DNA of 64,000 nucleotides, from NCBI RefSeq assembly GCF_029714425.1, contig NZ_CP121668.1, positions 248,001 through 312,000 on the forward strand. The letters are read 5' to 3'. This document shows positions 59,179 through 64,000 of the stretch, piece after piece. This stretch comes from Bradyrhizobium sp. CB2312 (GTDB lineage: Bacteria; Pseudomonadota; Alphaproteobacteria; Rhizobiales; Xanthobacteraceae). Numbering within the stretch: the stretch's first letter is position 1; the number at the start of each line of letters is the position of its first letter. Position numbers and translations under genes: made by a program. A model generated the notes under the pieces. It had not been told where the DNA came from and did not search any database. It worked only from the letters and a program-made list of their open reading frames with translations.

Positions 59179-61005
<1,827 letters not shown>

Positions 61006-61244: not shown

Positions 61245-61529
61245 TTAGGGGCGGGTTCCGGGATGGGTGGGGGCCTTCCGCCCCTTGATCGCCGCCCAGA
61301 TCAGGGCGATGCCTCCGATGCCGACGACCAGGCCCAGGAAGACCAGCGGCGCGATGTCCGAATCGATCTTGCCCCCGTCGATCGCCGAGTCTGCGCCGAA
61401 CAGCAGGGCGCAGAGGCCCGGCAACAGCAGGACGACCCCCGAGATCACCATGAGCGCGGTCAGGCAGCCGCTTCGTGCCTCGCCGGCCGTCGGAACGGGT
61501 GGCAGAACCGGCGGAGGCGTGTCGCTCAT
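61245..61529 (-). CDS. Small membrane protein, last gene of the radical SAM operon
   Basis: A 94-residue protein: a Pro-rich N-terminus (MSDTPPPVLPPVPTAGEA), then two membrane helices, SGCLTALMVISGVVLLLPGL and APLVFLGLVVGIGGIALIWA, and a basic tail. Its ATG overlaps the stop of the radical SAM gene (ATGA at 61529-61526), a sign of coupled translation. I recognise no family. Membership in this operon suggests an accessory of the radical SAM/Lgt-like pair, perhaps a partner at the membrane. Confidence 0.75.
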   Translation of the reverse strand: MSDTPPPVLPPVPTAGEARSGCLTALMVISGVVLLLPGLCALLFGADSAIDGGKIDSDIAPLVFLGLVVGIGGIALIWAAIKGRKAPTHPGTRP

Positions 61530-62983
61530 CGTGGTGCCTCCTCGCGCTGCCTTGCCTCGCGATAGGTCTGCCCTTCGAGCCCGGCGCGGATGCCGTCGAT
61601 CTTGCCGTTCCGATAGAACAGATTGTAGGTGTCGAACGGGATGATCGCGCCCTGCTCCGTCACGAAATGGATGCAGCTGCGCTTGACGTTGCCGACGCAG
61701 AAATTGAAGCGGTCGAGAAACTGCACGATGGTGACGCGGAAGACGTTCTCGTAACTGAGTCCTTCCGGCACCTGAAAGCTCGGCAGGCAGCACAAGAGAT
61801 CGCAGACGCGCTCGGAGGTGTTGAGCGGGCCCGACGACAGCGAGAACAGATCCAAGAACTTTTCCTGGAATTTCTCCCGCAGCATCGGATATTTTTCCGG
61901 GCTGATGGTGTTGGGCATCACCGCCACCAGCTGCTCCTGCGGGATCAGCGAGGTCAGCGGCAGCACCTTCTCGCCGTTGCGCAGGCCATAGCCGATCGAG
62001 ATGCTCTCGGGGTTGCAGGGCAGCGGGATCATGTCCTTGTCGCCGAACACACCGGTCTCGACGACGCGGTTGCGGATCTCCGACAGCATGATGCGGTCGG
62101 TAGCCTTGTCGAAATTCTCGTTGCGGCCGGCATCCTGCACCGGCTGGAGCGTGACGCCGCGCACGCATTTCCAGGTGAGGGCGTGGCGGACGATGTCGCC
62201 GATCTCGGTGTCGTTGACGCCGCGCTTGATGGTCGCGACCAGCGTGGTCGACACGCCGTAATGCTCGAGATTCTCCAGCGCCTGCTGGCGGATTTTCCGC
62301 AAATCCGCGCCGCGCAAATTGATCAGCGCATCGCGCTGAAGCGAATCGAACTGGAGATAGACCTCGAGCCCGCGCCTGTTCTCGGCGAGCCGCGCCACGA
62401 AATCCTTCTCGCGGGCGATACGCAGGCCGTTGGTGTTGATCATGACATGCCGGATCGGGCGCGCGCGCACCGCGTCCAGGATCTCGAAGAAATCCGGATG
62501 CAGTGTCGGCTCGCCGCCGGAAATCTGCACGAGGTCGGGCTCCCCTTCGCTGGCGACCAGCGCGTCGAGCATCTTCTCGATCGTCGCGAGCGGAGTGAAT
62601 TTCGTTCGGGCCGGCGCGGAGTCTGCAAAGCAGACCGGGCAGGTGAGATTGCAATGCTCGGTGATCTCGATCAGCGCCAGGCAGGAATGCTGCTCGTGGT
62701 CGGGACAGAGGCCGCAATCATAGGGACAGCCGTATTCGGTGCGCTGCTGGAATTGCAGCGGCCGGTCGCCCGGCTTGATGAAATCCTTGCACAGGCGCCA
62801 ATAGGCCGCGTCGGTGGACACGAGCGTCGACTGGACGCCGTGCTCCCGGCAGCGCTTCTCGTACCAGACCTCGTTGTCGAGGATCTGGATCTTGGTCGGC
62901 ACAAGTTTCAGGCAGGTTTCGCAAAGGGATTGGGTCTGGCCCCAGAAGATGTAAGGGCGCGACTTACGCAGCGGCGCGTTCAT
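61526..62983 (-). CDS. Radical SAM protein of the Tes/MJ0619-like (tetraether lipid synthase-like) group
   Basis: A 485-residue enzyme. The N-terminal region has CETC (21-24) and YGCPYDCGLCPDHEQHSC (84-101), extra cysteines before the radical SAM cluster CNLTCPVC at 111-118 (C-x3-C-x2-C). SGGEPTLHPDFFEILDAV is the SAM-binding GGEP motif. The order of these cysteine sets, with HEQHS, is that seen in the archaeal tetraether lipid synthase family and its bacterial relatives, which join or modify lipid chains by radical chemistry. Start 62983 has GAGG ahead and overlaps the Lgt-like gene by 20 bases. Substrate in this organism is inference only. Confidence 0.85.
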   Translation of the reverse strand: MNAPLRKSRPYIFWGQTQSLCETCLKLVPTKIQILDNEVWYEKRCREHGVQSTLVSTDAAYWRLCKDFIKPGDRPLQFQQRTEYGCPYDCGLCPDHEQHSCLALIEITEHCNLTCPVCFADSAPARTKFTPLATIEKMLDALVASEGEPDLVQISGGEPTLHPDFFEILDAVRARPIRHVMINTNGLRIAREKDFVARLAENRRGLEVYLQFDSLQRDALINLRGADLRKIRQQALENLEHYGVSTTLVATIKRGVNDTEIGDIVRHALTWKCVRGVTLQPVQDAGRNENFDKATDRIMLSEIRNRVVETGVFGDKDMIPLPCNPESISIGYGLRNGEKVLPLTSLIPQEQLVAVMPNTISPEKYPMLREKFQEKFLDLFSLSSGPLNTSERVCDLLCCLPSFQVPEGLSYENVFRVTIVQFLDRFNFCVGNVKRSCIHFVTEQGAIIPFDTYNLFYRNGKIDGIRAGLEGQTYREARQREEAPR

Positions 62984-63680
62984 GCATAGGCCTCGCTTGG
63001 CGCGCCGTCGCCAGCATGACGGCGGCGTAGAGCAGGATGGAGAGCGACAGCAGGTGAAACAGCGTGAAGGGCTCGATCAGCGGGCCGTAAGGCTTGAGGA
63101 ATTCCCACAGGAAGCGCTGCGCTCCATAAAAAGCGAGAACCAGGTAGAATCCATTGGTGATCACAAACGCATTCCGGTTCACGACCGCCAGCACATAGAG
63201 CTGGGCGAACAGGGCCATCGCCGCGCTCTCGTAGAGCTGCACGGGATGGCGCAAAATGCCGTCGCCGAAATCATGGCCCCAGGGCAATGCCGTCGCCGTG
63301 CCATAGGTGAAATCGTCAAGGCCCGCGAAATAGCAGCCGAGCCGTCCGATCGCGACGCCGAGGGCCAGCGGCAGGGCAAACCGCGCGCCGGTGCGCACCG
63401 CGATCCCTGCGGTCCATTTGTAGAGCTCGATCGCAACGATGCCGCCGGCGAGCGCGCCCTCCACCGAGCGCGCAATGCCGCTCTGCCCCGACAGCCACAG
63501 ATTGACCGAGCCGAACAGATAGGCGCCAAGGCCGGCGCCGAACACCAGCGCGGCGATGTAAGGCAGCTCGAACGATTGCGCCGGAAACCGCAAACCCTGT
63601 CGCGACAGCCAGTAAACGGCGGCTGCGGCCGCCAGCCACGCCGCAATGTCGAAGATCGTGTGAAGAAAAGCCCCGCTCAT
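62964..63680 (-). CDS. Lgt-like (prolipoprotein diacylglyceryl transferase family) membrane protein
   Basis: A 238-residue protein with seven or so membrane helices. GRLGCYFAGLDDFTYG (about 112-127) is the Lgt-family central motif, in a form with GC in place of the housekeeping GN, and HPVQLYES is the second family motif. It has only these core motifs of true Lgt and lacks the full GRIGNFINGE signature, so it may move a lipid group to something other than a standard lipoprotein. It is the first gene of the operon and overlaps the radical SAM gene by 20 bases. ATG lies inside a hairpin with no clear ribosome-binding site. Confidence 0.82.
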   Translation of the reverse strand: MSGAFLHTIFDIAAWLAAAAAVYWLSRQGLRFPAQSFELPYIAALVFGAGLGAYLFGSVNLWLSGQSGIARSVEGALAGGIVAIELYKWTAGIAVRTGARFALPLALGVAIGRLGCYFAGLDDFTYGTATALPWGHDFGDGILRHPVQLYESAAMALFAQLYVLAVVNRNAFVITNGFYLVLAFYGAQRFLWEFLKPYGPLIEPFTLFHLLSLSILLYAAVMLATARQARPMHERAAA

Positions 63681-63730: not shown

Positions 63731-63893
63731 GTGCCCTCTCCCCTTGTGGGAGAGGGCAGCTCCGTATCAGCCACAACCTCATTTGGGTGAGGGGTTGTCT
63801 CCGCGAATTCAGCCGCCGCGGTGTGCGCGGATAGAGACCCCTCATCCGGCTTCGCTTCGCAAAGCCACCTTCTCCCACAAGGGGAGAAGGAAG
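63731..63893. repeat. Palindromic repeat, CCTCTCCCCTTGTGGGAGAGG family
   Basis: CCTCTCCCCTTGTGGGAGAGG hairpin, GGGTGAGGGGTTGTCTCCGC, a CCCCTCATCCGGCTTCGCTT stretch and a closing CCTTCTCCCACAAGGGGAGA. It lies between the Lgt-like operon and the gene entering from the right edge. Confidence 0.82.
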
Positions 63894-63904
63894 AAGCAAG
63901 ACCC

Positions 63905-64000
63905 TTAGCTGGCCTCCCGCTCCTCGGTCGGATACACGCCCCGCAGCACCTCCTCGAAATGCATCTTCACCGCGTCGTTGCACAGGCAGGCGCGCAGGCG
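63905..64000 (-). CDS. C-terminus of an unidentified protein (cut by window edge)
   Basis: The minus-strand frame from the edge reads RLRACLCNDAVKMHFEEVLR then GVYPTEEREAS and a TAA at 63907-63905. The 31 visible residues are open to the edge with GC-rich codon use. I do not recognise the family; the Cys-Leu-Cys and helical charged ending give no firm lead. Confidence 0.5.
   Translation of the reverse strand, partial: RLRACLCNDAVKMHFEEVLRGVYPTEEREAS

Follow-up and report, generated by a model that had tools for sequence, protein, structure and literature searches.

We analysed a cassette of three genes at positions 61245–63680 of a 64,000-nt stretch of DNA from Bradyrhizobium sp. CB2312 (contig NZ_CP121668.1, positions 248,001–312,000; the whole stretch is called the window below). 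The host genome is 9.78 Mb in length, and the closest named proteins for the cassette were those of Bradyrhizobium. All three genes lie on the minus strand and overlap, as reported in a preliminary description made from the letters of this DNA alone. The first (62964–63680) encodes an Lgt-like membrane protein of 238 amino acids, a paralogue of the canonical Lgt that the genome also carries. The second (61526–62983) encodes a radical S-adenosylmethionine (SAM) protein of 485 amino acids, which belongs to the Tes/TrsS superfamily and contains PF04055 and PF23545. The third (61245–61529, with the ATG at 61529 and the stop at 61245) encodes a two-helix membrane protein of 94 amino acids with two hydrophobic stretches, which is a candidate substrate. 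The Lgt-like and radical SAM genes share 20 nt, and in the ATGA at 61526–61529 the stop of the radical SAM gene overlaps the start of the small gene. In the Lgt-like protein, the divergent motif GRLGC occupies residues 112–116 (63333–63347, minus strand), where R113 corresponds to R143 and C116 to N146 of Escherichia coli Lgt. The radical SAM protein contains the cysteine motifs CETC, CPYDCGLCP and CNLTCPVC, and the CX3CX2C motif of the radical SAM cluster (C111, C115 and C118) is encoded at 62630–62653. The small protein has a lipobox-like cysteine, Cys40 in LLPGLC, at the end of helix 1 (codon at 61410–61412), and a further cysteine, Cys22, which is kept in Bradyrhizobium, at the opposite edge of the same helix (codon at 61464–61466). 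The GRLGC motif and the ATGA-coupled protein of 94 residues were both described previously and were recovered here; the conservation of the cysteine motif and the frequent presence of several small-gene copies are additions to that description.

The genes for the Lgt-like protein, the radical SAM protein and the small protein form a conserved unit. Each enzyme was sought separately in sets of genomes, the window's own genome being included in the counts. Among 349 genomes of the phylum, the radical SAM gene was detected in 10 and the Lgt-like gene in the same 10, with none discordant; the chance of such an exact match is approximately 1.5e-19 if kinship is ignored. In the order Rhizobiales (121 genomes), the radical SAM gene was detected in six genomes and strong Lgt-like matches in the same six. 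Five further genomes of the order gave weak Lgt matches only (E 2e-7 to 9e-6), which were taken for ordinary Lgt. Four of 337 genomes of the class carried the radical SAM gene, one of them in a distant form (29% identity) with an Lgt-like gene also nearby. The distribution in the genus was patchy, the radical SAM gene being present in 40 of 98 genomes. The small protein was found in 41 of these 98 genomes, 39 of which also had the radical SAM gene; in G775, the one enzyme-only genome, a small homologue was recovered by profile (L173). Small-gene pieces were also seen without a radical SAM gene in two genomes (G828 and G834), perhaps as remnants of a lost cassette. At one locus (L154, genome G833), the radical SAM match fell into two pieces in different frames, a probable frameshift, with four small-protein rows alongside.

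To describe the layout of the unit, 99 loci were compiled: 16 from whole genomes, 3 from plasmids and 80 from a collection of named genomes. Nearly all of these 80 carry Bacteroidota names, and they were taken from at least 582 confirmed relatives. In 94 of the 99 loci, which cover three phyla, the radical SAM gene has an Lgt-like gene nearby on the same strand. The Lgt-like gene was located upstream in 93 of the 94, at a distance of up to 1 kb in 87 and of more than 1 kb in 7, and its open reading frame (ORF) overlapped the radical SAM start in 56, a number that may be overcounted because the longest ORFs were used. Four of the Lgt-like calls were partial ORFs (L043, L054, L089 and L091). Of the five loci with no Lgt-like gene, four (L055, L066, L088 and L092) begin less than 310 nt from a contig end, and the fifth (L094) has 5.2 kb visible upstream and 166 nt downstream. 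Overlap of the ATGA kind between the radical SAM gene and a small gene was detected in at least 30 of the 96 loci whose downstream sequence reaches 330 nt. Six of ten plasmid matches were inspected. On the Mycobacterium avium plasmid pS2b, two small cysteine-protein genes lie between the Lgt-like and radical SAM genes, the cysteine standing in AG[IY]CTGLNP near the C-terminus; a similar motif, AGICTGINP, is present in Nonomuraea (loci L038 and L036). The count of 99 leaves out three plasmid loci, L035, L037 and L039 (from Mycolicibacterium vanbaalenii, Halorarius and Haloarcula), in which a methyltransferase gene follows the radical SAM relative and no Lgt is annotated; when these are counted by annotation, an Lgt-like gene is present in 94 of 102 loci. 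The link with Lgt therefore marks a subgroup. The methyltransferase may be regarded as a second kind of partner for the radical SAM superfamily, on plasmids of Mycolicibacterium and haloarchaea. After clustering of the flanking ORFs, no gene beyond the trio recurred across lineages among the neighbour clusters listed (the 14 largest in one run), the recurring neighbours being general (ATPases and GTPases) or reflecting Flavobacteriaceae gene order. In a search for viral carriage, 3 weak relatives were detected among 28 pattern matches in viral_contigs, and none in phages at E 1e-20.

The Lgt-like protein scored 61.5 bits against Pfam LGT (PF01790; gathering cut-off 24.9), and fell far below the NCBIfam Lgt cut-offs. 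A Foldseek search with its model gave a best E-value of 0.35, with no Lgt among the 50 of 199 matches listed, and VIA-align ranked the Lgt structure 5azb first, in agreement with an Lgt fold. In E. coli Lgt, R143 and R239 are essential (PMC4728403), as is H103, a proposed acceptor contact (PMC4728403, PMC13251419). Across 30 Lgt-like rows, the R143 equivalent was kept in at least 90% and the R239 equivalent in all. At the position of N146 (C116 in the window protein), cysteine was found in 30 of 30 rows, and the position of H103 was never His, Tyr, Trp or Phe, being aliphatic, Met or Glu in every row; the set of essential residues R143, R239, N146 and H103 is thus not present in full. Both H103 and N146 vary in other Lgts too (PMC13251419). 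As judged from its profile match and model, the protein is a true but divergent Lgt homologue, and the family assignment of the preliminary description was upheld. A spare Lgt that serves ordinary lipoproteins and merely stands beside an unrelated radical SAM enzyme would also belong to the Lgt family, and second Lgts with the N146C change do exist, for example MSMEG_5408 (PMC13251419). However, the perfect co-occurrence with the radical SAM gene, the frequent overlap of the two genes, the canonical Lgt already encoded in the genome and the altered H103 position in all 30 rows make this explanation very improbable.

The radical SAM protein of the window exceeded the Pfam cut-offs for Radical_SAM (75.6 bits; cut-off 29.5) and for the HMPTM zinc ribbon (57.6 bits; cut-off 27). 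Its best NCBIfam match was TrsS (NF045646), at 302.5 bits, which is below the cut-off of 490, and its score against Tes, 261.1 bits, was below the cut-off of 450; four other Lgt-linked members scored 337.1, 322.0, 194.8 and 245.2 bits against TrsS, all below 490. The best match among solved sequences was 7tol (Tes; E 3.9e-61). The model of the protein (predicted local distance difference test, 83.5) matched 7tom/7tol over its full length with a template-modelling (TM) score of 0.76, whereas peptide-modifying radical SAM enzymes matched it in the core domain only. By model and profile, the folds of the two enzymes of the cassette are those of Lgt and of Tes. Compared with MJ0619, the residues of the rubredoxin site (C21, C24, C45 and H48), the N-terminal auxiliary cluster (C86, C90 and C93) and the radical SAM cluster (C111, C115 and C118) were kept. 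The archaeal C338, C455 and C470, a putative C-terminal cluster site, were replaced by Ser, Ser and Asp, and C101, C323, C398 and C399 of the window protein occupy positions without cysteine in the archaeal rows. In a tree of 40 rows, 14 archaeal Tes were set apart (100/100) and 23 Lgt-linked proteins were placed on one side of a branch (95/82), a group with modest support, whose rows were found with Lgt-linked seeds, in a tree where L026 and L035 form long branches. The earlier assignment of a Tes-like enzyme therefore held for the cysteine motifs and the full-length fold, but the protein does not belong to the archaeal Tes clade and scores too low for either the Tes or the TrsS cut-off. The linking of free acyl chains as in Tes, which had been offered as an example of its action, is not implied, given the missed Tes cut-off, the separate clade and the altered C-terminal cluster site. 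Since a substrate carbon in Tes is transiently bonded to the sulfur of one cluster (PMC9433317), the altered site in the main group may point to a changed chemistry. Two distant Lgt-linked proteins, L026 and L038, retain the archaeal cysteines C338, C455 and C470, so that the alteration is not universal among Lgt-linked enzymes; in L038, all three cysteines of the N-terminal cluster are absent. The possibility that the radical SAM gene encodes selenocysteine was considered and rejected, the single TGA in a few matches being taken for the natural stop, read through where the match ends.

One explanation of these features is a pathway confined to lipids, in which the radical SAM enzyme joins or alters the tails of free membrane phospholipids, in the manner of Tes and, as is supposed, of bacterial Mss (membrane-spanning lipid synthase). 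The Lgt-like protein would then provide the lipid or exchange its head group, with the small protein as an anchor or subunit. The full-length Tes fold, the match to 7tol and the retained residues of the rubredoxin site and of the N-terminal auxiliary and radical SAM clusters agree with such a pathway, as does the proposal of Zeng et al. that bacterial Tes homologues are makers of membrane-spanning lipids (PMC8941075). Nevertheless, the enzyme falls outside the archaeal Tes clade, and the strongest cross-phylum feature of the small protein is a cysteine motif, present in tandem diverging copies, as would be expected of a substrate more than of a subunit. We consider this pathway unlikely.

The small proteins of the cassettes were fast-changing and tiny, usually had two helices, and numbered one to five per locus; at L115, a locus from a metagenome-assembled genome, five small genes stand in a row. 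The mean column identity in a cross-lineage alignment of 43 small proteins was 12%. When these 43 were scanned for known families, none was matched by more than three of them at E 0.01 and no consistent Pfam or NCBIfam family emerged, and the small protein of the window reached no Pfam or NCBIfam cut-off. The feature common to the small proteins was a cysteine that ends a membrane helix, with flanking positive charge. Among the unshadowed small hydrophobic ORFs of the cassettes (n=119), [GSA]xC was present in 98 and any cysteine in 117, compared with 8 and 37, respectively, of 58 comparable ORFs elsewhere. A frame scan with fixed rules detected a lipobox-like site in 90 of 99 cassettes; among the controls, 14 of 99 opposite strands and 9 of the 85 flanks taken from downstream gave one. 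Since the controls differ in coding content, these counts serve as guides without p-values. Among the nine loci with no site, three (L077, L094 and L098) have less than 310 nt downstream, three (L022, L045 and L119) encode a cysteine protein that the strict filter rejects, one (L032) has a cysteine protein with LSGTC, outside the scan rules, and the remaining two are L070 and L089. A cysteine was selected in 105 of 123 small proteins, some of the selected cysteines (L055, L072 and L075 among them) being mid-helix picks, and the other 18 gave none by reason of low hydrophobicity, a charged residue or the lack of a suitable cysteine. Of the 105, 64 had Gly at −2, 83 had Gly or Ser at −4, and 20 had Gly or Ala at −1.

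The density of Lys and Arg in fixed windows was 0.150 per residue before the helix and 0.039 after the cysteine, and was higher before the helix in 71 rows and lower in 11, with 8 ties (90 usable rows of the 105). In control ORFs (n=22), the values were 0.097 before and 0.102 after, with 9 rows for, 10 against and 3 ties. Among Pseudomonadota, 10 of 11 rows were for and none against. An earlier form of the charge test (N side 2.92, C side 0.49; 87 for, 10 against and 8 ties of 105) was biased, its N side being anchored at a charged residue. Together with the positive-inside rule, the asymmetry of Lys and Arg therefore suggests that the cysteine is outside, where Lgt works; the motif cysteine is predicted to be placed on the outer side as in a lipoprotein signal peptide. 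The cysteine ends helix 1 in Pseudomonadota and helix 2 in most Bacteroidota.

Within Bradyrhizobium, 53 fetched stretches, some from the same genomes, yielded 72 distinct small-protein rows from 41 loci, the richest of which (L157) had five small-protein copies in four ORFs. A cysteine was located within two residues of the Cys40 motif position in all 72 rows, tandem copies included, and the Cys22 position read GC in 68 of 72. Among 120 of the 319 homologues listed together with the window protein, the motif cysteine (Cys40) was present in 121 of 121 and Cys22 in 120 of the 120 rows with a letter there. These rows come from closely related proteins, and many of their other columns are fixed as well. 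The retention of Cys22, at the edge of the helix that is predicted to be cytosolic, would fit a maturation resembling that of ribosomally synthesized and post-translationally modified peptides (RiPPs), in which the target of the radical SAM enzyme is the small protein itself, for example at a cysteine or neighbouring residue, and the Lgt-like protein adds a lipid or only holds the precursor. The small proteins also resemble precursors in being tiny, multicopy, fast-changing and often translationally coupled to the maturase. However, of 91 selected proteins in the Bacteroidota set, 11 had another cysteine near that edge and 48 had a single cysteine; genes for leader binding, proteolysis or export did not stand out among the neighbour clusters listed; and the whole-length match of the radical SAM protein is a lipid enzyme, peptide-modifying enzymes matching the core domain alone. 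We therefore regard a RiPP-like maturation as improbable.

The combination of an Lgt homologue, a Tes-fold enzyme and multicopy miniproteins with an outward cysteine is best fitted by two enzymes and a substrate. We tentatively propose, at somewhat short of an even chance, that the cassette is a dedicated protein-lipidation system, in which the Lgt-like enzyme lipidates a cysteine of the small protein and the radical SAM enzyme alters the fatty chain. Modification of a lipid or lipoprotein, the function suggested in the preliminary description, thus remains the best guess, now shifted to a lipid-tagged small membrane protein with the third protein as the likely substrate. In this system, the Lgt-like enzyme would transfer diacylglyceryl from phospholipid to its substrate, the small membrane protein, at the conserved cysteine where an inside-to-outside helix terminates; this site would probably be unacceptable to an ordinary Lgt. 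The radical SAM enzyme with its Tes fold would, either then or beforehand on the donor lipid, remove hydrogen from an unreactive carbon of the fatty chain, with the change most likely made through formation of a C–C or C–S bond. The product would be a lipid-tagged membrane miniprotein with unusual tails. The cysteine of the small protein is probably the lipid acceptor, and action of the radical SAM enzyme on a lipid chain seems about evenly balanced between yes and no; the order of the steps and the purpose of the cassette are conjectural.

Several observations weigh against a dedicated protein-lipidation system. With the H103 position changed and N146 replaced by Cys in 30 of 30 rows, the transfer reaction could have been lost. 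The radical enzyme is presumably cytosolic, whereas the motif cysteine is predicted to be outside. The canonical lipobox [LVI][ASTVI][GAS]C was found at 1 of 105 motif cysteines, the window protein having PGLC. At two loci (L070 and L089) with sufficient sequence and an Lgt-like gene present, no small cysteine protein was found. The small protein of the window is weakly like Phage_holin_3_6 (18.4 bits; cut-off 28.4), a domain that is also among the precomputed domains of 1 of the 120 small-protein homologues listed, and another membrane role of the small protein is therefore possible. Furthermore, the 80 Bacteroidota loci are closely related and not independent. A further conceivable product is a membrane-spanning lipoprotein, in which the Lgt-like enzyme would place a diacylglyceryl on the outer cysteine of the miniprotein and the Tes-like radical enzyme, acting from the inner side, would couple the tail ends to tails of inner-leaflet phospholipids; the protein would then be anchored by a covalent lipid bridge through the bilayer. 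We know of no post-translational modification of this kind, and hold this arrangement to be a speculative and quite unlikely one.

Downstream of the cassette, at a distance of 240 nt, lies a GTPase gene (59179–61005), which we take to be BipA/TypA. Upstream of the cassette, the adjacent gene has the same orientation and encodes a Crp-type helix-turn-helix regulator (window positions 63905–64000; L003:6906–7670), which might control the cassette, although a gene of this kind was not prominent in other lineages. Between the Lgt-like and Crp-type genes (63735–63900), inverted repeats of the type ctccccttgtgggaga were noted by eye and look like a dispersed intergenic element.

No paper describing the trio was found in the literature within scope, most subscription papers and all of bioRxiv being outside it. 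Bacterial Tes homologues numbered 456 from 13,919 genomes when counted in 2022 (PMC8941075), and Lloyd et al. pointed to Tes homologues in bacteria that are not known to make biphytanyl chains (PMC9433317). For TrsS, there was one mention, in a table of a selenoprotein review (PMC13188914). The trio seems to be new as a genetic system, although it is composed of known families and its chemistry is a proposal. The function of the bacterial relatives of Tes is unproven, and a large group of them, across three phyla, can now be assigned a constant partner and a candidate substrate. The chemistry of this Tes-like group thereby becomes testable with three small genes. If the proposal is true, bacteria would have a second route of protein lipidation, a dedicated one that uses an acceptor motif of its own, and the cassette would include the first radical SAM step known to us to act on a protein anchored by lipid. 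It may also be better to interpret 'second Lgt' genes with N146C in the context of their neighbours.

Among known systems, Mss with its partner Ger is similar by description only, as an enzyme that couples bacterial lipid tails and is modelled on Tes (PMC13274423); it differs in that the word Lgt does not occur in the main text of that paper. TrsS is the best NCBIfam match of the window protein, and two Bacteroidota members span nearly the whole profile; unlike TrsS proper, the window protein scored below 490, and the two scanned among L035, L037 and L039 were both below the TrsS cut-off as well. Tes, which joins saturated lipid tails (PMC9433317), is also known as GDGT-MAS (MJ0619) and shares with the radical SAM protein the whole-length fold, the rubredoxin-like C..C..C..H set, the N-terminal auxiliary cysteines and CX3CX2C. 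The window protein differs from Tes in its separate clade, its score under the NCBIfam Tes cut-off and the replacement of C338, C455 and C470, and in 10 of 10 genomes of the phylum with an enzyme of its type, an Lgt-like gene accompanies it. In contrast to Lgt of the E. coli type, the Lgt-like protein has Cys for N146 and an aliphatic residue, Met or Glu for H103. The small proteins depart from lipobox lipoproteins in favouring Gly at −2 over Gly or Ala at −1 and, in most Bacteroidota, in placing the cysteine near the C-terminus past helix 2, whereas they resemble them in the succession of a positive flank, a hydrophobic helix, small residues and then the cysteine.

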